From Cellulomonas cellasea (GTDB taxonomy: Bacteria; Actinomycetota; Actinomycetes; Actinomycetales; Cellulomonadaceae), in contig NZ_JAUDBQ010000008.1 of NCBI RefSeq assembly GCF_030372105.1, positions 1-64,000 on the forward strand: 64,000 bases of DNA. The letters run 5' to 3'. Within the stretch, counting starts at the first letter, position 1. Each line of letters begins with the position of its first letter. Made by a program: the position numbers and the translations under genes. Positions 2,763 through 43,446 of this stretch are shown in pieces. Under the pieces are notes generated by a model. The model worked only from the letters and a program-made list of their open reading frames with translations, searched no databases and was not told the DNA's origin.

Positions 2763-2822
2763 CCGCCATCCGGACAGGGCCTCGCCACCCGGCTCGCACC
2801 CGGTTAGCGTCCGTGGCGACAA

Positions 2823-2924
2823 GCCCCCGGGGAGCGCAGGAGCGCTGAGAGTGCGGCCGGACGAGAGTCCCACCCGCAGACCCGTGGAACCTGATCCGGC
2901 TCACACCGGCGTAGGGAGCAGGGC
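2823..2924 (+). ncRNA. TPP (thiamine pyrophosphate) riboswitch
   Basis: All conserved TPP aptamer blocks are present in order: GGGGAGC at 2829, GCTGAGAG at 2844, ACCTGATC at 2889 and GTAGGGAG at 2911. A short closing P1 pairs 2823-2826 with 2921-2924. It precedes the ykoFEDC-type transporter genes, which fits repression of thiamine or precursor uptake when TPP is abundant. About 145 nt separate it from the ykoF start; possible expression-platform hairpins are listed separately. Confidence 0.95.
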
Positions 2925-3014
2925 ATGTGTCGTCGGGCTCCCCCGTCGCCGCGTGGCTGACGGGCTGGGCGGCGACTGCTGCCCTGATCCGTCGTCCGCA
3001 CCGCCGACCCGGGG

Positions 3015-31366: not shown

Positions 31367-32458
31367 TCAGGCGAGCCCGCGCGCCCGGCCCGCGTCGTCC
31401 GGCCCCCACAGCGTCGTCGACACCTCGCGGCGCACCAGCGGCACGACCTCCTCGGCGAAGCGGCGCAGCACGTCCTGCTGCTGCTCGTAGGGCAGCACGG
31501 GGTTGAGCGAGACGGACTGGACGTCATGGCCGTAGGCCTTGTGGTAGGCGAGGATCTTCTCGGCCACCTGCTCTGGGGAGCCCACCAGCGCCGGCCCGTG
31601 CGCCACCGCGTCCTCGAGGGTGGGGAACGACGACGCCTTGCCGGGACGGCCGTCGCCGGCGTGCGCGGCGGCGGTGCGGGCGGCCTGCGCCTCGTACACC
31701 GCCCGGTACTCGGCCGTCGCCTGCGCGGTGGTGTCGGCGAGGAACAGCCCGCCCGAGCCGGAGCCGACATACGCCTTCGCCGGGTCGTGGCCGTAGGCCG
31801 CGTACTGCTCGCGGTAGTGGTCGATGAGCGCCTTGTAGGCCTCCCGGGGCTGGAACGCGTTCGCCGTGAAGATCGGGTCGCCCCATCGGGCGGCGAGCTC
31901 GACGGCGAAGGTCGACGTCGCGGAGCCGTGCCACACGCGGAACGGGCCGTCGAAGGGACGCGGCTGCGTCGTCGCGTCGGCCAGCGGGGCGTGGAAGCGG
32001 CCCGACCAGTCGACGTGCTCCTCGCGCAGCAGGCGCCGCAGCAGCTCGTAGTTCTCCTGGAGGTAGTCGTACTGGTGGGCGATGTCGAGCCCGAACAGCG
32101 GGAAGTGCCGGTCCTCGTTGCCCTTGCCGATGACGATCTCGAGCCGCCCGCCGGAGAGCTGGTCGACGGTGGCGTAGTCCTCGGCGACCCGCACCGGGTC
32201 CAGCAGCGAGAGCACGGTGACCCCGGTGCTCAGCAGGATGCGCTCGGTGGCCTGCGCGAGCGCGCCGAGCAGCACCGTGGGCGAGGAGGACAGGAAGTCC
32301 CCGGCGTGCCGCTCCCCCACGGCGTACGAGTCGAAGCCGAGCTGCTCGGCGAGGACCGCGTTCTGCACCACGCGCTCGAGCCGCTCCGTGGGGCTGATCA
32401 GCTCGCCGGTGACGGGGTGCGGGGTGTGCGGGACGATGTCGAGGACCTGGAACCTCAT
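31367..32458 (-). CDS. LLM-class FMN-dependent monooxygenase (luciferase-like)
   Basis: 363 aa TIM-barrel luciferase-like oxidoreductase. Typical pieces are LAEQLGFDSYAVGERH, ILLSTGVTVLSLLDPVRVAEDYATVDQLSGGRLEIVIGKG and FRVWHGSATSTFAVELAARWGDPIFTA. It resembles the putative monooxygenases encoded with peptide-type ABC transporters (the KPN_01858-like group) and the YtnJ/YxeK enzymes that oxidise S-substituted N-acetylcysteines. The ATG overlaps the acetyltransferase stop, so it is the last gene of the presumed thiol-salvage operon. A flavin reductase is not encoded nearby. Confidence 0.82.
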   Translation of the reverse strand: MRFQVLDIVPHTPHPVTGELISPTERLERVVQNAVLAEQLGFDSYAVGERHAGDFLSSSPTVLLGALAQATERILLSTGVTVLSLLDPVRVAEDYATVDQLSGGRLEIVIGKGNEDRHFPLFGLDIAHQYDYLQENYELLRRLLREEHVDWSGRFHAPLADATTQPRPFDGPFRVWHGSATSTFAVELAARWGDPIFTANAFQPREAYKALIDHYREQYAAYGHDPAKAYVGSGSGGLFLADTTAQATAEYRAVYEAQAARTAAAHAGDGRPGKASSFPTLEDAVAHGPALVGSPEQVAEKILAYHKAYGHDVQSVSLNPVLPYEQQQDVLRRFAEEVVPLVRREVSTTLWGPDDAGRARGLA

Positions 32459-33465
32459 GGGCGTGCTCCTTCGGGAGTCTCGACATCGAGGCCGAACGCG
32501 AGGAGCGGGCTCCCCTCGATGATGTGGGTCTCCCGCTCGGGAAGGCGGGAGAAGCCGAGCCGCTGGTAGAGCCGGTGGGCGCCCGTCATCTCGGCGCCGG
32601 AGTTCATCACCACGCGCCGCAGTCCGCGCTGGCGTGCGAGCTCGACGACATGCCGGGTGAGCAGCTCGCCGATGCCTCGCCCACGGGCGGCCGGGTCGAC
32701 GGCGAGGAGCCGGAAGTCGAGCTCGCCGTCCTCCGCGACCAGGGAGATGCGGGCCCCTGGCCGCGGGGTGGCGACGGCGCCCAGCAGTGCGCCGGTCGCC
32801 AGGTCCTGGGCGACCCACACCTCGTGCTCGCGCGCGCGGGCCTCGACGTCCGCGAGCTCGGCGCGGTACCGGTCACTGATCGCGTAGTCGTGGCTGTACG
32901 CCGCAACGGTCAGCTCGGCGACCCGCTCGTGCTCATGCGCGGCGATCAGCCGGACGAGCACGCCGTGGCGTGAGAAGTCGTACCGGTAGAAGACGAGCCG
33001 CCCGACGCCCGGCACCTCTGCGGTCTCGCGCTCGACGTCGCGGGCGAACCCCAGCCGCTCGTAGAGGCGCTGGGCGTCCACGTTGGCCGGCCCGGTGTCC
33101 AGGACGAGCGCGTCCATGCCCCAGGCGCGCGCCCGGTCGAGGGACTCGAGGACCATCGCGCCCCCGATGCCACGGCCCCGCCCGGCGGGGGCGACCGTGA
33201 GCAGCCGCAGCTCGGCCTCGCCGTCCCGCGCCTCGCGGGCGTGGTCTGTGCCGTTCCGCAGCAGGCTGGCCGTGCCGAGCAGCTCGTCGCCCTCGACGGC
33301 CACCAGCAGGTCGCCGCTGGCGGCTCGCCCGGCGGCGTCGCGCAGCAGCCGCACTCGCTCCGGATTCGTGGTCGGCCCGTACACCCCGGTGGCGAAGCCG
33401 TGCTCGGTCAGGCGCCCTACCGCGGGGTGCTCGTCGACGCGCGCGCTGCGAATCTCGATGCTCAT
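32455..33465 (-). CDS. Tandem GNAT acetyltransferase
   Basis: 336 aa with two GNAT domains: residues about 3-165 with the acetyl-CoA loop RGRGIGGAM, and about 170-325 with RGRGIGELL. N-acetyltransferases in analogous Bacillus operons (SnaA, SnaB) acetylate S-modified cysteines before oxidation, which fits the neighbours here. ATG 33465 (AGGGA nearby) is preferred. A GTG at 33525 overlaps the M20 gene stop but lacks a ribosome site. Acetyl acceptor not known. Confidence 0.82.
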   Translation of the reverse strand: MSIEIRSARVDEHPAVGRLTEHGFATGVYGPTTNPERVRLLRDAAGRAASGDLLVAVEGDELLGTASLLRNGTDHAREARDGEAELRLLTVAPAGRGRGIGGAMVLESLDRARAWGMDALVLDTGPANVDAQRLYERLGFARDVERETAEVPGVGRLVFYRYDFSRHGVLVRLIAAHEHERVAELTVAAYSHDYAISDRYRAELADVEARAREHEVWVAQDLATGALLGAVATPRPGARISLVAEDGELDFRLLAVDPAARGRGIGELLTRHVVELARQRGLRRVVMNSGAEMTGAHRLYQRLGFSRLPERETHIIEGSPLLAFGLDVETPEGARP

Positions 33466-33521
33466 CCGTTCCCTGTCCCTCGTCCTGCCCGTTCGGCCGT
33501 CGCCCTGCCCTGGCTGCTTGC

Positions 33522-34889
33522 TCACTCGAAGTAGCCGGGCACGTCCACCGGCCCGCCGGCGTGCTCGAAGTCCTGGCGCACGGCGTCCCGCAGGCGCGGG
33601 TCGGCAAGATAGTCGAGCGCCGTGAGCGCCAGCCCGATGGCCCCGTCGATCGCGGCCCGGTCGCCGGCCGGACCGCCTGCGGCGTGGGCGAACTCGCGGG
33701 TGTGCAGGGCGACGTCGGGCTCGCTGACGGCGATCATCGGGTGGATGCCGGGCAGCCGCTGGCTCACGTTCCCGAAGTCCGTCGACGCCGCGAGGATCTC
33801 CGGCACGATGCCGCCCGCGAGCGCGGTGCGCCCCTGCGCCGCCTGGTGCTGGGCCCAGCGCTCGGCCAGTGGGGTGTTGGTGCGCAGCGGCAGGCTGAAC
33901 GGCACGGGGTCCCAGGTCACCTCGGCCGTGGTGCCGGTGGCTAGCGCGACGCCGTGGGCGATGTCCTCCAGGCGCTGGGACAGGTCGCGGAGCGTGGCGG
34001 CGTGCGCCGATCGCACGTAGTACTCGAGGGTGGCGCGCTCGGGCACGACGCTCGGCCGCTCCCCGCCCTCGAGCACGATGCCGTGGACGCGGTCCGAGGG
34101 CGGGATGTGCTGGCGGAGAAAACCGACCGCCTGGTAGTTGAGTGCGACGGCGTCGAGCGCGTTCCGCCCCATGAACGGGCTCGCCGACGCATGGGCCGCG
34201 ACCCCGTGATAGGTCACGCGCAGCCGGCGGCGCCCCAAGAACGGGTGATCGACGACGTCATAGCCGAACGGGTGGACCATCACCGCAGCGTCCACCCCGT
34301 CGAAGAACCCGGCGCGCGCGAGGATCTCCTTGCCGGAGTTCCCCTCCTCGGCAGGGGTGCCCAGGAGCAGCACCCGGCCCGGCAGCTCGAGCCCGTCGGC
34401 CACGGCCCGGCGCAGCGCGAGGAACGCCCCCACGCCCGCCGCGGCGATCACGTTGTGGCCGCAGGCGTGGCCGATCCCCGGCAGCGCGTCGTACTCCGCG
34501 AGGATCGCCACGGTGGGCCCCGCGCCCGGGTCGGGATCCCCGGAGTCCGGGCCGGCGGCCGTCAGCCCCGCGCGCAGCGCCGTGGCCAGCCCGTGCGAGC
34601 CGACAGTCGCGGTGACGCCGTGCCTGGCCAGCAGATCGGCGATCTCCGCAGCGGCCCGGCGCTCCTGGAACGCCTCCTCGGGATGCGCGTGGATGACGCG
34701 CGAGAACACGACGACGTCGTCCTGCTGGGCCTCGGCGGCGGACCGGACCCGTGCCACATCGCGCTCGGCTGCGCCCTGGTGCGGTGAGGCCGACGGGACG
34801 AAGGTCGCCCGGCGGCGCTCCGTCTGCGCCCGCAGCGCGTCGAGATAGGCGGTGCTCGGCGGCGCCGGCCGTGTGCGGTCCTCGCTCAT
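33522..34889 (-). CDS. M20 family amidohydrolase/deacylase
   Basis: 455 aa. Metal-binding motifs of the M20 peptidase family are visible: LPGIGHACGHN (near residue 148) and the catalytic Glu pair in LLGTPAEEGNSGKE. A dimerisation domain starts around RRLRVTYHGVAAHASASPFMGRNALDAV. Such enzymes remove acyl or amino acid groups from amides (SndA/YxeP and AbgB types). Position after a peptide transporter and before an acetyltransferase and a monooxygenase suggests deacylation of an N-acyl thiol or cleavage of an imported conjugate. Confidence 0.87.
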   Translation of the reverse strand: MSEDRTRPAPPSTAYLDALRAQTERRRATFVPSASPHQGAAERDVARVRSAAEAQQDDVVVFSRVIHAHPEEAFQERRAAAEIADLLARHGVTATVGSHGLATALRAGLTAAGPDSGDPDPGAGPTVAILAEYDALPGIGHACGHNVIAAAGVGAFLALRRAVADGLELPGRVLLLGTPAEEGNSGKEILARAGFFDGVDAAVMVHPFGYDVVDHPFLGRRRLRVTYHGVAAHASASPFMGRNALDAVALNYQAVGFLRQHIPPSDRVHGIVLEGGERPSVVPERATLEYYVRSAHAATLRDLSQRLEDIAHGVALATGTTAEVTWDPVPFSLPLRTNTPLAERWAQHQAAQGRTALAGGIVPEILAASTDFGNVSQRLPGIHPMIAVSEPDVALHTREFAHAAGGPAGDRAAIDGAIGLALTALDYLADPRLRDAVRQDFEHAGGPVDVPGYFE

Positions 34890-34963
34890 CGCCCGCGGCC
34901 TTCGGTCAGCAGCCGGTCGAGACCCCGGTCGCGCGGTGGGGCGGTGAGCGGGTGCTCGGTCAT
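34886..34963 (-). CDS. Possible 25-aa ORF overlapping the M20 start
   Basis: A 25-codon frame with an ATG and a GGGAGA site six bases upstream ends in an ATGA overlap with the M20 gene start. It starts MTEHPLTAPP and ends RLLTEGRGR. Its main effect could be translational coupling into the M20 gene across the 240-base gap after the ATPase gene. No family is recognised, and it may be fortuitous. Confidence 0.3.
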   Translation of the reverse strand: MTEHPLTAPPRDRGLDRLLTEGRGR

Positions 34964-35131
34964 CGTGGGTCTCCCTGGGTGGTGCGGGGTCGGTCCGAGT
35001 GGCGCCTCGGAGGGGTGGACGTCGGTCAACGACGCCGTCGCCAGGACCAGGATGGTGCCCGCAGCGCACACGAGGCCAACCACGCGGGCATTCCCGATGC
35101 GCGACACCACCCTGGACGGCGCCTGCCAGCC

Positions 35132-36875
35132 TCACCCGGACACCCCCAGCGCACGCGCCCGCCGCCCGGGCACCGCCTCGACGAGCTCGCGGGTGTACGC
35201 CTCCCGCGGGTCGAGCAGCACCTGCTCCGGCGTCCCCCGCTCGACGAGCCGCCCGCGATGCATGACGCCCACCTCGTCGGCGATCTGCCGCACGACGGCC
35301 AGATCGTGGGAGATGAAGAGGTAGCTCAGGCCGTGCTCGGCCTGCAGCTCCGCCAACAGGTCCAGGATCTGCGCCTGGACGGACACGTCGAGCGCGGAGA
35401 CAGGCTCGTCGAGCACCACCAAGTCCGGGTGCAGGGCGAGCGCCCGCGCGATGGCCACACGCTGCCGCTGCCCGCCCGACAGCTCCGCGGGCAGCCGGCC
35501 CGCGACGCCCGTCGGCAGCGCGACCCGGTCGAGGAGCTCGCGGACCCGGGCCGCACGGGTCGCGGCGTCGCCGACGCGGAACGCGCGCAACGGCTCGGCG
35601 ATCACCCGCTCGACGGTGAAGCGCGGGGTCCAGCGACGCGTACGGGCTCTGGTAGACGACCTGCACGCGTCGCCGCAGCCGGCGCAGCCGCTCCCCCGAC
35701 ACCCGCGTCACGTCCACCCCGTCGAGATGGACCGTGCCGGACGTGGGCTGCTCCAAGCGCAGCACCAGCCGCGCGGTGGTGCTCTTGCCCGATCCCGACT
35801 CGCCCACCAGCGCGAACGTGCGCCCGGACGGGATCTCGAAGCTCACCTCGTCGACGGCCCGCAGGGTGCGGGCGCCGCCTGCCGTGCGGGGCAGGGCGAA
35901 CTCCTTGACCAGCCCGCGCGCGCTGAGCAGCGGGGCAGCGAGGCCATCGGGGGTCGCGGCGCCCAGGCCATCCGTCGCCTCGAAGGCCTGGTCGTCTGGG
36001 GTCGAGGGGCCCTGGCCGCCCACGGGCGCCGTCCGGGCGCCCGGCGCCCGCCCACCGCCGCGGGGGCCGGCCGCCAGGCTCGGCGCGGCGGCGATCAGCG
36101 CCCGCGTGTAGGGGTGGCGCGGCGCGCCCAGCACCTGCGCCGTCGGGCCCTGCTCGACGACCTGCCCGTGCTGGAGCACGACGATGCGGTCCGCCCGGTC
36201 CGCGGCGACGCCCAGGTCATGCGTGATGAGCAGCACCGCGGTGCCGAGCGTCGAGGTGAGCGCGGCGATGTGGTCGAGGATGCCGCGCTGCACGGTGACG
36301 TCGAGCGCCGAGGTCGGCTCGTCGGCGATCACGAGGCGTGGCCGGGCCGCGAGCGCGATGGCGATGAGCACGCGCTGGCGCATCCCGCCGGAGAGCTCGG
36401 TGGGGTACTGGCGGGCGCGCACCTCCGGGCGGTCGAGCCCGGCCTCGCCGAGCAGCTCGACCGCGCGGGCGCGGGCCTGCCGCCGCCCGGCGAGCCCGTG
36501 CAGCACGAGCACCTCGGCCACCTGCGCGCCAACCCGCATGACGGGGTTGAGGGAGACCGTGGGGTCCTGGGGGACGAGCCCGATGTCCCGGCCGCGCACC
36601 TCACGCCACTGCTGCTCGGAGAGCCCGGTGAGGTCCTCGCCGCCGAAGCGCAGCCTGCCCCCGTCCACGCGCCCGCCACGGGCGAGCAGGTGGATGACGG
36701 CGTGCGCGAGGGTGCTCTTGCCCGAGCCCGACTCCCCCACCAGCGCCACGACCTCGCCGGGGCGCACCTCCAAGGTCACGCCGCGCACCGCGTCGGCCCG
36801 CCCCTCCCCGGACCGGTACGACACGCGCAGGTCCTCGACGCTCAGCAGCGGGCCCTGCTCGGCAACCGTGCCCAT
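35132..36875 (-). pseudogene. Dipeptide ABC transporter ATPase (two fused domains), interrupted by a frameshift
   Basis: The start ATG 36875 overlaps the permease stop (TGATG) with GGAGG upstream. Domain 1 is complete: Walker A GESGSGKST, signature LSGGMRQRV and Walker B VIADEPTSALD (DppD type). Domain 2 (DppF type) starts with Walker A GESGSGKST and reaches [12 protein letters not shown]. It then leaves frame at a G4 run (35625-35628; C4 in the coding strand). The remainder, with [21 protein letters not shown] and SHDLAVV, continues in another frame to the stop at 35132. Removing one base restores a 580-aa protein like DppD-DppF fusions. It may be a sequencing error or a real inactivation. 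Confidence 0.85.
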
Positions 36876-37783
36876 CAGTCCTCCACCCGTCGTTCCAGCG
36901 CACGCGCGACGCGGTTCGCCGACAGCACCACTGCCACGATCACCAGGCCCGGGAACGTGGCGAGCCACCAGGCGGCAGCCAGGTAGTTGCGCCCCTCGGA
37001 GACCAGCGACCCCCACTCGGGCGCGGGAGGCGCCGCGCCGTAGCCCAGGAAGCTCAGCGCGGAGATCGCCAGGATCGCGGCGCCGAACTCGAGCGCCACG
37101 AGCGCGAGCACGGGCCCCGAGGCGTTGGGCAGCACATGCTGGCCCAGCACCGCATGCCAGCGGGCGCCCGACGAGCGCGCGGCCTCGACGTACACCGAGG
37201 CGCTCACCCGCAGCACCTCGGAGCGCATCACCCGGGCGAAGGCCGCCACGCTGGTGATGCCCACCGCGACGGCCACCTTGAGGGAGCCGAAGCCCAGCAC
37301 GGTGACCAGGGCCAGCGACAGCAGCAACCCCGGGATGGCGAGCAGCACGTCGACGACGCGCCCCACCACGTCGTCCACCCACCCCCGCAGGAACCCGGCC
37401 AGCAGGCCCAGGAACGTGCCGACGGCCAGGCCCACGACCACGGCGACGACTGTCGCCTGGATCGACAGCGCGGCCCCGTGCACCACCCGGGCGAACAGGT
37501 CCCGCCCGATCTGGTCGGTGCCGAACGGGTGCGCGGCGGAGGGGCCCTGCAGGCGCTCGGCCGGGACGCCGGTGATCGGATCGGCGGAGGTGAACAGGCC
37601 CGGCGCGACGACCCACGCCGCCACGCCCAGCAGCACCAGGACCGAGAGCGCCAGCCCCGGGCTGCGGCACAGCGCACGCCACACTGGGCGGGCCGCCGAC
37701 GCCGGCCAGCGCCGGCCGGGGGCCGGGATCACGGCGCCGGCTGCGTGGGATGCGCCGGGCTGCAGGTGCTCGACTACTGCCAT
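36875..37783 (-). CDS. Dipeptide/oligopeptide-type ABC transporter permease (DppC type)
   Basis: 302 aa. It has the N-terminal OppC-like segment with HPFGTDQIGRDLFARVVHGAALSIQ, five or six membrane helices, and the coupling EAA loop YVEAARSSGARWHAVLGQHVLPNASGPVL. It forms the channel with the DppB-type partner, whose gene ends 34 bases upstream. The stop overlaps the ATPase start. Confidence 0.92.
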   Translation of the reverse strand: MAVVEHLQPGASHAAGAVIPAPGRRWPASAARPVWRALCRSPGLALSVLVLLGVAAWVVAPGLFTSADPITGVPAERLQGPSAAHPFGTDQIGRDLFARVVHGAALSIQATVVAVVVGLAVGTFLGLLAGFLRGWVDDVVGRVVDVLLAIPGLLLSLALVTVLGFGSLKVAVAVGITSVAAFARVMRSEVLRVSASVYVEAARSSGARWHAVLGQHVLPNASGPVLALVALEFGAAILAISALSFLGYGAAPPAPEWGSLVSEGRNYLAAAWWLATFPGLVIVAVVLSANRVARALERRVED

Positions 37784-37817
37784 CAGATCGCTCCTCGTCT
37801 CGGGCGCCGGGTCCGGG

Positions 37818-38771
37818 TCATGCGGCGACCGGCGCGCGTCGGAGGCTGATGCGGGGGTCCACCAGCGGGTACAGCAGGTCGACCGCGAGCGCGACGACCA
37901 CGAACACGAGCGCCGAGAACACCACCACCGCCATCACCACGGGGATGTCCTGGGAGTTCACCGCGGAGATCGTGAGCCGGCCCAGCCCCACCCGCGAGAA
38001 GACCGTCTCGGTGACCACGGCGCCGGAAAGGAGCTGGCCGACGCTCACGCCGAGCACCGTCAACGCGGGGATCGACGCATTGCGCAGCGCGTGGCGGAAG
38101 TGCACGCGCGCCCGCCCGGCGCCCTTGGCCCGCGCCGTCTCGATGTACGGCTCGGCCAACGTCTGGCGCAGCGACCGAGCCAGGAGCTGGGCGATCGACG
38201 CGCTGGTCGGCAGCGCCAGGGCCACCGCGGGCAGCACGAGGCTCGCGAGGCCGTCGTTGCCGATCGCCGGGAACAGCCGCCACTGGAAGCTGAAGACCTG
38301 CACCAGCATCAGCCCCACCCAGAACACCGGCAGGGACACCCCCAGCGGTGGCAGCGCCGCGAGGGCGTGCCGCAGCCACCGCGTGCGCGGGTAGGTGCTC
38401 GCCACCGCCAGCCCGACGCCGAGCAGCACGGACAGCGCGAGCCCCGCGACGGTGAGCTGCAGGGTCTGCGGCAGCACGTCCAGGATCAGCGATGTCGCCG
38501 GGGCGTCGGACTGGTACGAGCGGCCGAAGTCGAGCCGGGCCGCGCCGCCCAGCGCGTGCAGGTACTGGGCGAGCGGCGGCCGGTCGAGCCCATGCTCCGC
38601 GCGCAGCTCCGCCAGCAGCGCTGGGTCGACCACCGACTGCTCCCCGCCGCCGGAGGCCATCAGCTCCACCGGGTCGCTGGGCAGCAGGTACAAGATGGCG
38701 AAGGTCACCGTGAACGCGGCCCACAGGACGACTGCCCCCTGCGCCAGCCGGCGGAGCACGTAACGGGTCAT
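37818..38771 (-). CDS. Dipeptide/oligopeptide-type ABC transporter permease (DppB type)
   Basis: 317 aa. The N-terminal helix MTRYVLRRLAQGAVVLWAAFTVTFAILYLLP, the HGLDRPPLAQYLHAL segment and the EAA loop YIETARAKGAGRARVHFRHALRNASIPAL are diagnostic of DppB. The ATG overlaps the binding-protein stop (ATGA). Confidence 0.93.
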   Translation of the reverse strand: MTRYVLRRLAQGAVVLWAAFTVTFAILYLLPSDPVELMASGGGEQSVVDPALLAELRAEHGLDRPPLAQYLHALGGAARLDFGRSYQSDAPATSLILDVLPQTLQLTVAGLALSVLLGVGLAVASTYPRTRWLRHALAALPPLGVSLPVFWVGLMLVQVFSFQWRLFPAIGNDGLASLVLPAVALALPTSASIAQLLARSLRQTLAEPYIETARAKGAGRARVHFRHALRNASIPALTVLGVSVGQLLSGAVVTETVFSRVGLGRLTISAVNSQDIPVVMAVVVFSALVFVVVALAVDLLYPLVDPRISLRRAPVAA

Positions 38772-40390
38772 GGCTGGGACACCCACGCGTCGTAGAAGTC
38801 CAGGCGGGTGGACGCCTCGAACTTCAGGTCGTGCACGGTGTCGGCCGCGGCGATGGTCGTGGACAGCTCCACCACGGGGATCGAGTGCGCCTTCTCCAGC
38901 AGCAGCCGCGACGCCTCGGTGACGAGCCGCTGCCGCTCCGCCGGGTCGACGGCTGCGGCCTGCTGGTCGAGGAGGTCGTCGACCGGCTCCGCCGCCCGCT
39001 TGTTCGTGTTGCGCGCGTTCACCGAGAAGAGGTTGCGCAGGATGTCCGGGTCGGAGCGGGTCAGGTTCCCGTACGAGAAGTCGTACTCCCCGTCCGCGCT
39101 GGCGGCGGTGGCCTCGGCGATCGTCACCTGGTTGAGCCGCAGATCGAACCCGATCTGCCGCAGCTGCTGCTGGACCAGCTCGAGCGGGTCCTTCACCTGC
39201 CAGAACGTCACCTCGGTCGACAGCGGCTGGCCGTCCTTCACCCGGATCCCGTCCGGCCCCTCCACCCAGCCGGCCCCCTCCAGGAGCTCCTTGGCGCCCT
39301 CGGGGTCGTACGCGAGCAGCTCGTCCAGCCCTTCGTACAGCGGCGTCGTGTGGGCGAGCGCGGCGCTCGCGGGCTCGTCGAGCGGGGTGAGCACCGTGCC
39401 GGTGACCTCCTCGCGGTCGATGCCCTTGAGCACCGCCACGCGGACCCGCTCGTCGGCGAGCAGCGGGCGGGACTCGTTCGGGTACAGGTTGAACACGACG
39501 CCCGGGTTGGCGCGGTACGCGAGCCAGAACCCGTTGCCGTCGAACTGCGGCAAGTCCGCGGTGCCGATGGCCGCGGTCGCGTCGATCTGCCCGGACGCCA
39601 GGCTCCCGGCCCGAACCCCGGCCTCGGGGATCACCGTGAACGTGACGGTGTCCAGATACGCCTCGCCCGTGTGCGAGCTCGCCCCCGCCGCGCCCCACGT
39701 GTACCCGTCGCGCCGCGCGAGCACGGCCCGCTGGTCCACGGTGTACTCCTGGACGACGAACGGCCCCGACCCGTCGAACTTCCCGGCGCAGCGGTCCTCG
39801 ACGCTCAGCGCCGCCGAGGCCGGCGAGAGCAGGCCCAGCGAGAACGTCGACGTGGCCTGGAGGAACTGGGCGCTCGGCGCGCTGAAGTCCACCACCACCG
39901 TCGACGGGTCCGGGGCGGTCACCGACTCGAGGTCCACCAGGTACGTCGAGCCCAGCGACGCCTTCGCGCCGAGCGCGACGATGGCCTCGAAGTTCGTCTT
40001 GACCGACGCCGCGTCGATGGGCGTGCCGTCGGCGTAGGTGGCGCCGTCGACCAGGTGGAACGTGAACTGGCTGGCGTCGTCGTTCACCTCCCACGACTCG
40101 GCCAGCCACGGCACGATCTCGCCCGACTCCGGGTTCTGCGCCGTGAGGGACGCCACCGTCTGGCGCGCGATGGCGATGGCGTCGTTGTTGCCGACCTGCT
40201 GCGGGTCGACGCACTTGGAGTCGACGGTGATGGCGAAGGCCAGGTCTCCGCCGCGCACCGGCTCCGCCGACGTGGAGGACGTGGAGTCGCCCTCGGCGGG
40301 CTCGGTGGCGCCGCCGGCGCAGGCGGACAGGGCCAGGGCGGCGGTGACGGCCAGGGCCGTGCCAGGGGCATGACGGTGCAGGGTGCGCAT
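38768..40390 (-). CDS. Substrate-binding lipoprotein of a peptide-type ABC transporter (family 5)
   Basis: 540 aa. Lipoprotein signal with lipobox LSAC (Cys24), then a Ser/Thr/Glu linker. The SBP family 5 fold includes VPWLAESWEVNDDASQFTFHLVDGATYADGTPIDAASVKTNF (about residues 95-135) and VVFNLYPNESRPLLADERVRVAVLKGIDRE. The ATG has GAGGAG nine bases upstream. It is like the binding proteins encoded beside LLM monooxygenases (KPN_01854-like). The true ligand may be a modified cysteine or thiol peptide, not an ordinary dipeptide. A Cys-rich leader ORF precedes it by 224 bases. Confidence 0.9.
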   Translation of the reverse strand: MRTLHRHAPGTALAVTAALALSACAGGATEPAEGDSTSSTSAEPVRGGDLAFAITVDSKCVDPQQVGNNDAIAIARQTVASLTAQNPESGEIVPWLAESWEVNDDASQFTFHLVDGATYADGTPIDAASVKTNFEAIVALGAKASLGSTYLVDLESVTAPDPSTVVVDFSAPSAQFLQATSTFSLGLLSPASAALSVEDRCAGKFDGSGPFVVQEYTVDQRAVLARRDGYTWGAAGASSHTGEAYLDTVTFTVIPEAGVRAGSLASGQIDATAAIGTADLPQFDGNGFWLAYRANPGVVFNLYPNESRPLLADERVRVAVLKGIDREEVTGTVLTPLDEPASAALAHTTPLYEGLDELLAYDPEGAKELLEGAGWVEGPDGIRVKDGQPLSTEVTFWQVKDPLELVQQQLRQIGFDLRLNQVTIAEATAASADGEYDFSYGNLTRSDPDILRNLFSVNARNTNKRAAEPVDDLLDQQAAAVDPAERQRLVTEASRLLLEKAHSIPVVELSTTIAAADTVHDLKFEASTRLDFYDAWVSQP

Positions 40391-40509
40391 GTGGGTCGAC
40401 TCCTCGATCGGTCGGGTCGGTGCGGTGGAGGCGTCCTCGACCCCGCCCGTCGCGGGCCTCCCGTCACGTCGACGGGTGGGCGCGGGAGCGGGCGGCCCTG
40501 GCGCAGGAG

Positions 40510-40527
40510 ACGGCGATCGGCCGTCAT
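40510..40527 (-). promoter_or_regulatory. Hairpin in the transcribed leader of the ABC transporter operon
   Basis: A 6-bp GACGGC/GCCGTC stem with a short loop lies between the Cys-rich leader ORF and the binding-protein gene. A second 6-bp hairpin (CCCGTC/GACGGG) is at 40461-40477, and a third (GTTCCG/CGGAAC) forms directly after the leader stop near 40602-40616. Together they could provide alternative structures for attenuation. Pairing was found by eye only. Confidence 0.35.
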
Positions 40528-40614
40528 GGCGCAGCGGGACAGGCAGAGACGAAGGACGAGGCGCTGGAGGCGCGGATGGACGGGCGAGGCCGTGCCGGGC
40601 AGTTCCGGGCGGAA

Positions 40615-40692
40615 CTAGCGACAGGCGCGCGGGACCAGCAGCATGCGTCGACAGCCCACACAGGGGGCGTCGGGACACTGCCAGTGGGCCAC
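40615..40692 (-). CDS. Cys-rich leader peptide, candidate cysteine attenuator
   Basis: 25 codons, GTG start with a GAAGGA ribosome site six bases upstream. The peptide begins MAHWQCPDAPCVGC and ends RRMLLVPRACR, with Cys at 6, 11, 14 and 24. The second half resembles the short actinobacterial leader peptides that end in an Arg-rich and Cys-containing tail ahead of sulfur genes. Ribosome stalling at Cys codons when cysteine is short would then control the downstream transporter operon. The role is inferred from position and composition. Confidence 0.55.
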   Translation of the reverse strand: MAHWQCPDAPCVGCRRMLLVPRACR

Positions 40693-40902
40693 GGTCAGTC
40701 CTTCGTCAGATGCGGTGTGCTTACCGGCCGTGCGTCGACCGGTCAGGCGTACCCGGAGCACCCCGTCACATCGAGGGGTTGCTGGTCGACGAGCCGGGCC
40801 TTGGCGTCGACACTCTGTGCCTGCGAGAAGTACAGCGGCGCGGAGCCCGGGTTGGCAACCATTGCGCCGTTTGATCTCATATGTCGGCCGATAGCCGGGC
40901 GC
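40693..40902. other. Intergenic stretch before the Cys-leader operon
   Basis: Apart from the possible 45-aa ORF at 40743-40880, nothing recognisable is seen. The stretch must hold the promoter of the leader and transporter operon, but no clear -35/-10 pair can be picked. It ends at the terminator of the lyase gene. Confidence 0.5.
40743..40880 (-). CDS. Possible 45-aa ORF upstream of the leader peptide
   Basis: A 45-codon frame with ATG at 40880 and the ending LDVTGCSGYA. GC at third positions is high through most of it, as in real genes here. No good ribosome site is seen and the first codons are unusual (AGA TCA AAC). It may be a small protein of the same operon, or chance. I recognise no family. 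Confidence 0.3.
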   Translation of the reverse strand: MRSNGAMVANPGSAPLYFSQAQSVDAKARLVDQQPLDVTGCSGYA

Positions 40903-40940
40903 GCACGGGGGCGGCAGCCACCCGGCTGCCGCCCCCGTGC
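40903..40940 (-). terminator. Strong terminator hairpin after the rhamnogalacturonan lyase gene
   Basis: A perfect 17-bp stem (40903-40919 with 40924-40940) and a 4-base loop lie 26 bases past the lyase stop. Confidence 0.85.
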
Positions 40941-40965
40941 CGCCCCACCCGGCGCGCGAACGCCG

Positions 40966-43260
40966 CTACGGCGTGTAGATCTTCGGCTGCGCCGGCGCCG
41001 TGAACGGGTCGCCCAGCGCGAACCCCGGATGCGGCGGCTGGTTGTACGCCGTGTTCTGCCACGCGATCGCCGTGCGGTACTGCGCGTCGTGCAGCAGCGT
41101 GTGGACCTTCAGGGCTGTGACAGTCGGCGTCGCGTAGATCCGCAGGGCTGTCGAGTCGGTGGTCGGCCAGACGACCTCCTCACGCCAGTCGCCCCACAGG
41201 TCCCCCGACAGGGACGGCGTGGCCTTCGTGGAGTTGTTCGCGACGACCCCCGACGCGGTGAGCAGACGGGTGTCGCTCGACGGCGTGTACTTGTTCACGT
41301 ACGTCCGGTCCAGCAGCTCGCGCACCGGGTCGCCGTCCCACCAGGCCAGGAAGTTCGCCGACGACGGCTTGCGGCCGATGTCGGAGCCCTTCGCGCTGCG
41401 CATCACCGAGTCCGCCGACGACCACGACTCCGCCCCCGCACTGCCCGACCAGATGTCGCCCGAGACGCCGCGGCCGTTGTCGCCGCCCGCCGGGGTGGAC
41501 CACAGGATCTGACCGGTGCGGGCGTCCGCGAACCACGAGCTCGGCTTGCTGGCGTCCTCGCTGACCTTGAACACCTCGAGCCCGGAGCGGGAGGGGTCCA
41601 GGTCGCCGACGTGCAACGCGTCGCCGTGGCCCAGCCCGGTGTTCCACATGACCGTGCCGTTGTCGTTGATGGCCGCGGCGCCGTAGATGACCTCCTGCTT
41701 GCCGTCGCCGTCGGCGTCCGCGATCGACAGCTGGTGGTTGCCCTGGCCCGCCACTGCGCTGTTGCCCGCGGACGAGCTGTTCGAGTCGAAGGTCCAGCGC
41801 CGCGTGAGCGACCCGTTGCGGTAGTCCCAGGCCGCCACGACGGCCCGCGTGTAGTAGCCGCGCGCCATGATGATCGACGGCCGCTGCCCGTCCAGGTAGG
41901 CGGTGCCCGCGAGGAACCTGTCGACGCGGTTGCCGTAGGAGTCGCCCCAGCTCGACACTGTGCCTCGCGCGGGCACGTAGTCGGCGGTGGCGCCGATGGA
42001 CCCGTCCTGGCCCTTGAAGACCGTGAGGTACTCGGGCCCGCTGAGCACGTAGCCGGAGGAGTTGCGGTAGTCGGCGCTGGACGAGCCGATGAGCTGGCCC
42101 GTGCCGGACCGGGTGCCGTCGGCGGTCTTCACCGCGACCTCGGCCCGGCCGTCGCCGTCGTAGTCGTAGACCTGGAACTGCGTGTAGTGCGCGCCGGCCC
42201 GGATGTTGCGCCCCAGGTCGACACGCCACAGCCGCGTGCCGTTCAGCTCGTAGGCGTCCAGGTAGACATTGCCCGTGTAGCCGGACTGCGAGTTGTCCTT
42301 GGCGTTGGACGGGTCCCACTTGAGCACGATCTCGAGCTGCCCGTCGCCGTCCAGGTCGCCCACGCTCGCGTCGTTCGCGCTGTACGTGTACGCCTCCCCC
42401 GAGGGCGTCGTCCCGCCGGCGGGCTTCTGGATCGGCACGTCCAGGTAGCCGTTGGCGAACGTGAGGCTGGCCCCCGAGGCGGCCTGCTCGGCCCCGTTGA
42501 CGACGGCGCGCACCGTGTAGGACGCGTTCGCCGCCGCGCCGGCGTCATAGAAGTTCGTGGAGTCGGCCACGGGCGTCGAGGTGATCCGCGTGCCGCCGCG
42601 GTAGACGTGGAAGGTGGTGCTGCGCGGCTCCGTGCCGAGCAGGCGCCACTGCACGAGGTTGCCGCTGCCGGAGCGCACGCTGATCAGCCCGCGGTCGAGG
42701 CGCTCGGCCTGCCAGGAGCCCGCCACCGGCGCCGTCGGCTCCGGGGTGGGCGTCGGCGACGCGCTGGGCGAGGCCGACGGTGTGGCGCTCGGGGTGGCGG
42801 TGGGGCTCGCTGTCGGCGAGGACGTGGGCGAGCTGGTGGGCGTCGCGGCCGCACCGGTGCACGCGGTCCCGTTGAGCGTGAACGCCGTGGGCGCCGGGTT
42901 GGACGAGCCGTTCCACGCGCCGTTGAACCCGAAGGACACGGAGCCGCCACTGGGCACCGCCGCGTTGTAGCCGGCGTCCTTCACGCTCACCGCGTTGCCG
43001 GACTGCGTCGCGACGCCGTTCCACGCCTGCGTGACGCTCTGCCCGGCGGAGAAGGACCAGCCCAGCGTCCAGCCGTTGAGCGCGTCCCCGAGGTTGGCGA
43101 TGGTCACGGAGCCGCCGAAGCCCGTCGACCACTGGTTCGTCACCTCGTAAGTGACCCGGCAGGCGGTGGCCGCGACGGCGCCCTGGGCTGCGACCACCCC
43201 CACGCCCGCGGCCAGCGCCGCGATGGCGATCAACCCGGTGGCTCTGCGTCGAACTGACAT
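40966..43260 (-). CDS. Secreted rhamnogalacturonan lyase (PL11) with N-terminal CBM2
   Basis: 764 aa. A signal peptide of about 30 residues ends AVA-A. A cellulose-binding CBM2 spans residues 33-134, bounded by Cys34 and Cys134 with surface Trp44, Trp64 and Trp80. A Ser/Thr/Pro linker runs from about 138 to 178. The rest is a PL11 beta-propeller with repeated calcium-type loops such as DLDGDGQLEIVLKWD, DYDGDGRAEVAVKTADGT and DADGDGKQEVIYGAAA. It cleaves the rhamnose-galacturonate backbone of pectin outside the cell while anchored to cellulose. ATG 43260 has GGGGAG upstream. Confidence 0.94.
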   Translation of the reverse strand: MSVRRRATGLIAIAALAAGVGVVAAQGAVAATACRVTYEVTNQWSTGFGGSVTIANLGDALNGWTLGWSFSAGQSVTQAWNGVATQSGNAVSVKDAGYNAAVPSGGSVSFGFNGAWNGSSNPAPTAFTLNGTACTGAAATPTSSPTSSPTASPTATPSATPSASPSASPTPTPEPTAPVAGSWQAERLDRGLISVRSGSGNLVQWRLLGTEPRSTTFHVYRGGTRITSTPVADSTNFYDAGAAANASYTVRAVVNGAEQAASGASLTFANGYLDVPIQKPAGGTTPSGEAYTYSANDASVGDLDGDGQLEIVLKWDPSNAKDNSQSGYTGNVYLDAYELNGTRLWRVDLGRNIRAGAHYTQFQVYDYDGDGRAEVAVKTADGTRSGTGQLIGSSSADYRNSSGYVLSGPEYLTVFKGQDGSIGATADYVPARGTVSSWGDSYGNRVDRFLAGTAYLDGQRPSIIMARGYYTRAVVAAWDYRNGSLTRRWTFDSNSSSAGNSAVAGQGNHQLSIADADGDGKQEVIYGAAAINDNGTVMWNTGLGHGDALHVGDLDPSRSGLEVFKVSEDASKPSSWFADARTGQILWSTPAGGDNGRGVSGDIWSGSAGAESWSSADSVMRSAKGSDIGRKPSSANFLAWWDGDPVRELLDRTYVNKYTPSSDTRLLTASGVVANNSTKATPSLSGDLWGDWREEVVWPTTDSTALRIYATPTVTALKVHTLLHDAQYRTAIAWQNTAYNQPPHPGFALGDPFTAPAQPKIYTP

Positions 43261-43446
43261 CAGTCTCCCCTTCGAGCGATGCGTGGGGAGATGGTTCTGG
43301 CCTGCGCCCGCGTCGAGCAAGCGCTCTCCCGGTGCAGAGGCTAGAAGCAGGACAACCCGCCTGTCACGGGAGGAACCGGGCCCTGAAGCGATTCACGGCC
43401 GCCAACCGCTCAGCGTGCCGGCTCCCCTGCCCGGCATCGCGCGAGG

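Follow-up and report, generated by a model that had tools for sequence, protein, structure and literature searches.

What decides whether the transport operon that begins at position 40390 on the minus strand of this Cellulomonas cellasea DNA is expressed? The window, meaning the whole 64,000-nucleotide stretch analysed, carried a first-pass annotation that placed a 25-residue, Cys-rich leader peptide ahead of the operon and invoked attenuation. That annotation overlooked a SAM-IV riboswitch aptamer directly upstream of the leader ORF, and it gave too much weight to hairpins and to the CPDAPCVGC segment of the peptide. The leader runs, in order, aptamer, leader ORF, 224-base spacer and operon. 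At a probability of roughly two in three, we favour the reading that it is a two-input sulfur sensor, in which the aptamer would respond to S-adenosylmethionine (SAM) and the Cys codons to Cys-tRNA, with Rho-dependent control of a salvage operon.

The SAM-IV aptamer and the leader ORF

The leader has the following features:
40712–40821, minus strand: SAM-IV riboswitch aptamer (RF00634), 66.2 bits against a gathering cut-off of 38, model positions 1–116 complete, E = 1.7e-9
40698–40707, minus strand: 5′ arm of a 10-bp complement, GACGAAGGAC, in the leader Shine-Dalgarno region, perfectly complementary to part of the spacer
40699–40704, minus strand: leader Shine-Dalgarno GAAGGA, read in the sequence, 6 nt ahead of the GTG
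40615–40692, minus strand: leader ORF as translated, 25 codons, GTG start, four TGT Cys codons, ending ACR*
40601–40616, minus strand: small hairpin that spans the stop codon; folding predicts it here and in a close relative (L090)
40548–40557, minus strand: 3′ arm of the 10-bp complement, GTCCTTCGTC, in the spacer, pairing with the leader Shine-Dalgarno region
40391–40614, minus strand: C-rich, G-poor spacer, candidate Rho-loading region, 224 nt, C 0.46, G 0.30

A cmscan of the whole window returned three matches, one of them the complete SAM-IV aptamer, which scores above the curated covariance-model cut-off and retains the conserved SAM-IV core in the alignment of 40821–40712. A TPP riboswitch lies elsewhere in the window (2818–2936, plus strand, 64 bits), and a strong G+C-rich palindrome at 40903–40940, just past the upstream gene 40966–43320, perhaps marks the 3′ end of that gene.

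The aptamer match ends 19 nt before the leader GTG. Across 21 leaders listed by hand, the median distance from aptamer to ORF start was 34 nt, close to the 36 nt that separate the aptamer from cysteine-desulfurase genes following it directly (37 genes with a callable start), and from this we infer that the leader ORF is the riboswitch's target, just as a first gene would be. The binding-protein gene starts 321 nt behind the aptamer, a long way for the riboswitch to control that gene's Shine-Dalgarno sequence directly. This distance argues against the alternative that the SAM-IV aptamer controls the operon alone and the short ORF is incidental, which we consider unlikely and which the survey below also addresses.

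Translation of the minus strand bore out the annotated ribosome site GAAGGA, the GTG start (at 40692) and the 25-codon frame with its four Cys codons, all TGT. The peptide is VAHWQCPDAPCVGCRRMLLVPRACR*, and the TAG stop lies at 40617–40615. The binding-protein gene, with its start at 40390 and a Shine-Dalgarno of its own, is read in another frame. TGT is also, as annotated, the rarer Cys codon: 24 TGT against 211 TGC were counted in 96 first genes behind SAM-IV sites (taken with a crude ORF caller), and 4 against 14 in eight window ORFs, one of which (37783–38724) is in the wrong frame. In the leader ORFs found behind aptamers at other loci and in the window, the figures were 45 TGT and 27 TGC (25 sites, near relative omitted). 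The enrichment of TGT in Cys-ended leader ORFs over background genes is strong by these counts, where the background is coding sequence and random GC-rich DNA would hold more TGT than genes do.

By its make-up the ORF belongs with the actinobacterial Cys-rich leaders: it is short and preceded by a ribosome site, its several Cys codons include at least one adjoining the stop, and it lies upstream of sulfur genes, whose sulfur role is deduced from the domains of the operon. Neither NCBIfam nor Pfam holds a family matching the peptide, and profiles NF042934, NF042936 and NF042933 gave no match to it at E up to 5. It also differs from the mycobacterial polycysteine attenuator, defined from the title of the cited paper by a Cys run in a leaderless ORF, as its Cys residues are scattered and a Shine-Dalgarno is present. 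The CPDAPCVGC segment singled out previously is indeed in the window peptide, but among the leaders listed it occurs elsewhere only in that of the near relative, so the common feature is Cys codons near the stop. By eye, its spacing resembles that of metal-binding sites, as would suit a functional Cys-rich microprotein such as a thiol or metal binder; leaders at other loci do not have the window's peptide sequence, and the window peptide matches no family, so we regard this explanation as very unlikely.

Recurrence of the leader behind SAM aptamers

Within the genus, the window leader was present in two of the seven genomes searched (its own included), a third giving a 29-base match only. Cellulomonas timonensis (L090/L103) encodes the same peptide. 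Compared with the relative that has the full leader, the 78-nt ORF differs by one synonymous change, the aptamer stretch at 5 of 130 positions and the spacer at 8 of 225 columns. The exact peptide is known from two genomes only, 96% identical there, a divergence too small to prove selection on the ORF alone. Conservation of the small frame thus holds for one relative; the peptide is not conserved further away, where it is the arrangement that recurs.

We assessed this recurrence across SAM-IV sites, which were found in 47 of 59 relatives and in 114 of 197 genomes of the class. The 188 sites scanned, drawn from a larger number, comprised 102 from relatives and 86 from the class; the latter, a selection among the matches listed, consisted of 26 returned directly and 60 chosen (54 lower-scoring listed ones and six others). 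We counted Shine-Dalgarno-led ORFs of 5–60 codons with at least two Cys, one within the last five codons, that start between 15 nt before and 70 nt after the aptamer end. Such Cys-ended ORFs occurred at 26 of the 188 sites, the window and its near relative included, against a mean of 4.7 and a maximum of 10 in dinucleotide shuffles (60 rounds); about 5 of the 26 would be expected by chance. A strict rule retained 18 sites (shuffle mean 0.93, maximum 3). The reverse complement yielded 4 ORFs (none under the strict rule) and the upstream flank 1 in 58. Of 15 residues put through the same scan (A, G, L, P and R left out), Cys stood out with 26 against 5.4, followed by Val with 18 against 11.1. 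An excess of several times over chance speaks against an incidental ORF behind a self-sufficient riboswitch.

The peptides themselves vary. Some leaders elsewhere share an RRHxDL motif with each other, which the window leader lacks, and two tandem leaders (L235 and L043) match NF042934 above its cut-off. At two sites (L061 and L065), leaders of 8 codons (MRMCCCRH and MRMRCCHP) sit about 10 nt behind SAM-IV and precede a MetN-like and a luciferase-like gene, respectively. A back-to-back pair of SAM-IV aptamers lies on one further contig (G102 contig 16).

The leader ORFs were unevenly distributed over the genes that follow, as classed by exemplar proteins (sites with a leader/sites):
Luciferase-like: 10/17
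Binding protein: 5/7
MetN-like: 1/4
Permease: 1/3
PAPS-reductase-like: 1/2
MetY-like: 3/32
MetX-like: 1/14 (L208, the ORF starting inside the aptamer end)
Cysteine-desulfurase-like: 0/64
Flavin and FMN reductases: 0/9
Other: 4/36

Exemplars for the desulfurase, luciferase-like, MetN, PAPS-reductase-like and binding-protein classes were backed by Pfam; those for MetY, MetX, the reductases and a second luciferase-like class were named by eye. Luciferase-like and binding-protein sites together carried a leader in 15 of 24 cases, against 3 of 96 desulfurase and MetY sites (Fisher, 1.8e-10, relatedness ignored), and in 13 of 24 against 1 of 96 under the strict rule (relatedness likewise ignored). 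A rougher class count, with clusters of mixed frames, L058 added by hand and L208 left out, gave 16/25 against 3/100. Three sites scored as lacking a leader (L037, L050 and L058) each have a Cys-rich short ORF whose last Cys falls outside the tail rule. This preference for certain genes, and the unusual codon choice, speak against control by the riboswitch alone; the desulfurase genes, none of which has a leader ORF behind its SAM-IV aptamer, speak for it. The absence of leaders from the flavin-reductase genes weighs against the two-input reading, as these would be expected to serve the same monooxygenases.

Relatives of the window's binding protein were also inspected. Among 29 such loci (L103–L131), 14 have a SAM-IV core by pattern, and a leader ORF was recovered in two of the 14, C. 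timonensis and Oerskovia rustica; in the latter (L108), a confirmed SAM-IV aptamer (81.4 bits) is followed by an unrelated peptide ending APCCR. A Cys leader thus lies upstream of related binding-protein genes in these two; the other 12 lacked a leader ORF by the standard scan, so it is dispensable in that setting, which favours the riboswitch-alone alternative. Of the 15 loci that lack such a core, leader scans covered 14 (L130 omitted; L113 with only 75 bases upstream). One of them, from Kineococcus vitellinus (L120), carries MSAKSHVPILRRVVDLCRTCSTGCR behind a SAM-I aptamer of 51.9 bits. ORFs flagged at L116, L127, L128 and L131 were chance-like. In two congeneric genomes from a different family of the class (L235 and L244), SAM-IV is followed by an RRHIDL-type leader and a binding protein of the window's class, and the same order of SAM-IV, Cys leader and binding protein recurs in a third family (L212), with a weaker ribosome site.

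The window's own genome holds a second tandem (L301, C29:80947–81045). A SAM-I match of 43.8 bits, slightly short of the 44.4 cut-off, is overlapped at its 3′ end by GGAGGT; the leader ORF MRNPSSVHSCRCCPA follows, with three TGT codons, and the start of a luciferase-like gene lies 304 bases past the aptamer. Luciferase-like genes in other genomes carry SAM-IV and a Cys leader at 10 of 17 sites, so the aptamer class can differ while the Cys leader stays. Among 51 hand-picked SAM-I aptamers surveyed without a shuffle control (30 loci of the best matches, 20 chosen and L120, which was found by its leader), a loose scan flagged five, L295, L301, L306, L317 and L120. The tandems at L120, L301 and L306 are convincing; L295 and L317 were set aside as chance-like. 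The same genome also has a SAM-I and a SAM-IV aptamer back to back (C29:89821–89923, minus strand, and 90043–90157, plus strand), and a similar pair lies on G087 contig 75.

Spacer composition and candidate modes of control

The hairpin annotated at the leader stop is real and short (AGTTCC/GGAACT within 40616–40601), and in the close relative L090 it is predicted with one base inserted in its loop. Its overlap with the stop codon would suit classical transcription attenuation, in which an intrinsic terminator follows the ORF and competes with an antiterminator. However, no terminator-like site was found in a scan of 40300–41000, no T run follows the hairpin in the DNA, and global folding of the window leader showed nothing unusual. 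We therefore consider a classical attenuator extremely unlikely. The further hairpins reported before the next gene did not hold up, folding stability over the 343-nt stretch 40712–40370 being at chance level (z = −0.81). A sigma-70 promoter scan of the window leader found nothing. Of the original attenuation proposal, a regulatory Cys-codon leader remains likely from the comparative data; the classical mechanism does not.

In mycobacterial-type translation attenuation, leader RNA would sequester the binding protein's Shine-Dalgarno until a stalled ribosome frees it, as a 2020 paper, cited in later work, is reported to describe for Cys genes of M. smegmatis. Four leaders (L082, L230, L235 and L244) hold, inside the leader ORF, a 7-nt complement to the gene start region, but shuffles matched these in 6, 28, 12 and 37 of 60 rounds, respectively, so that even the best of the 21 leaders, L082, was reached by 6 of 60. 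In the window, sequestration was rejected: the best complement to the binding-protein start is 7 nt, is reached by 22 of 60 shuffles, which is chance level, and lies in the spacer, outside the ORF. We judge this mechanism improbable here, although it may operate at the four other loci.

A different pairing, of 10 bp, joins the leader Shine-Dalgarno region to the spacer; a complement of this kind was found in 34 of 20,000 shuffles. Among 21 leaders it is common to the window and its near relative L090 only; in the other 19, such complements extend to 8 nt at most (L076, where 2 of 60 shuffles did as well). It appears to be a lineage-specific extra, which might close the leader once the spacer is made. 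A hairpin of at least 6 pairs just before the leader Shine-Dalgarno was present in 11 of 20 tandems (shuffle mean 2.0, maximum 6). It is absent from the window leader and is therefore left out of our explanation.

The composition of the spacer points to Rho. Mean C−G was 0.20 in 20 tandem spacers and −0.02 just upstream of 58 aptamers; of the 150-base windows on both strands of L103–L126, 0.8% attained the spacer level of 0.20. Twelve binding-protein leaders without the ORF are also moderately C-rich (mean C−G 0.12). By composition, then, the window has the C-rich, G-poor stretch behind the ORF that would be expected of a Rho-dependent leader; such spacers suit Rho loading and favour Rho-dependent control. 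Cys-rich leaders have been predicted for actinobacterial cys operons, with Rho suggested, in the available text of PMC1262725.

The operon and a two-signal reading of its leader

The genes behind the leader are:
38768–40390, minus strand: solute-binding protein, SBP_bac_5 (Pfam, 3.7e-68)
37818–38765, minus strand: ABC permease, DppB-like (Pfam BPD_transp_1, 5.2e-32)
36875–37783, minus strand: ABC permease, DppC-like (Pfam, 6.6e-31)
33522–36866, minus strand: two ABC ATPase domains and an M20/amidohydrolase domain in a single frame (Pfam; TIGR01891 above cut-off)
32455–33525, minus strand: double GNAT acetyltransferase (Pfam)
31367–32458, minus strand: luciferase-like FMN monooxygenase (Pfam, 9.3e-77 on the longer frame 31367–32818; ATG at 32458)

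The frame 37783–38724 was rejected as the first permease, the right one being 37818–38765. For the monooxygenase, the nearest NCBIfam model was TIGR04036, below its cut-off. Alignment of the frame 33522–36866 to C. timonensis shifts frame near residue 414, which points to a difference in gene order or to an error in one of the two sequences.

By their Pfam and NCBIfam domains, an acetyltransferase, a flavin monooxygenase and an amidohydrolase stand side by side, as in the salvage of S-modified cysteines, and the operon may import and salvage these or similar organosulfur compounds. The Bacillus subtilis clusters that break down S-modified cysteines group acetyltransferase, monooxygenase and deacetylase genes, and their shared predicted product is N-acetylcysteine (available text of PMC12757645). 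The window resembles the scm, ytn and yha clusters described there in keeping acetyltransferase, flavin monooxygenase and deacetylase genes together; unlike them, it adds a dipeptide-type transporter and an amidohydrolase fused to ATPase domains (PMC12757645).

Under the two-input reading, SAM binding to the aptamer would govern ribosome entry at the 25-codon ORF, which sits where the first gene normally follows this riboswitch. At high SAM the ORF would go untranslated, the C-rich spacer would be exposed, and Rho would terminate transcription. At low SAM with ample Cys-tRNA, ribosomes would reach the stop codon and leave, exposing the spacer again. When SAM is low and Cys-tRNA scarce, ribosomes would stall on the TGT codons by the stop and cover the start of the spacer, and RNA polymerase would reach the operon. 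The operon is thus probably switched on only when both SAM and cysteine run low, and once on it would import and break down S-modified cysteines or similar organosulfur compounds.

The Salmonella mgtA leader, with mgtL, combines an ion-sensing RNA and the translation of Pro codons in one leader; its ligand, amino acid, host and mechanism are different. Among SAM riboswitches (SAM-IV, RF00634; SAM-I, RF00162), the window aptamer is a full-length, above-threshold SAM-IV match, and the difference is that a Cys-codon leader ORF stands in place of the regulated gene. Like the Cys-rich leaders known from Actinomycetota (NF042934, NF042936 and NF042933; available text of PMC1262725), the window ORF is short, has Cys near its stop and lies upstream of sulfur genes, but its peptide falls outside these three families and is preceded by a riboswitch, which the available text does not mention for them. 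In the M. tuberculosis Mbox-rv1805A-pe20 and B12-uPPE2-ppe2 leaders, too, whether a small ORF preceding the operon is translated depends on a riboswitch (PMC12810186, PMC11260477), and for the Mbox leader, riboswitch control of the small ORF together with Rho-dependent termination has been reported (PMC12810186). The available text of those two papers does not describe these ORFs as amino-acid sensors; the window ORF would add a Cys-codon input. The 'methionine' leader peptide of Streptomyces lividans metNIQ, which has ...ARCMCRRMCAF as its end, is likewise rich in Cys close to the stop and may deserve re-reading as a Cys leader (available text of PMC8079986). Aptamer and Cys leader are thus each of a known class; their pairing was not found among the matches listed from the open-licence literature, and an earlier report may exist.

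Beyond this locus, and at slightly short of even odds, actinomycetes may repeatedly have built a sulfur-starvation RNA AND-gate, in which SAM-I or SAM-IV gates a leader ORF and its Cys codons read Cys-tRNA charging. Genes serving both the Met and Cys pools would then open only when both are low, with Met-branch genes mostly under the aptamer alone. If this is true, one leader RNA integrates a metabolite, through its aptamer, with an aminoacyl-tRNA, through its codons, and the choice of sensor tracks the metabolic branch point: genes feeding both Cys and Met would often carry both sensors, those of the Met branch mostly one. Long leaders behind known riboswitches, easily annotated as an aptamer acting on the annotated gene, would then merit re-reading. 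The arrangement would offer a testable logic gate and a way of predicting sulfur-acquisition operons from sequence.
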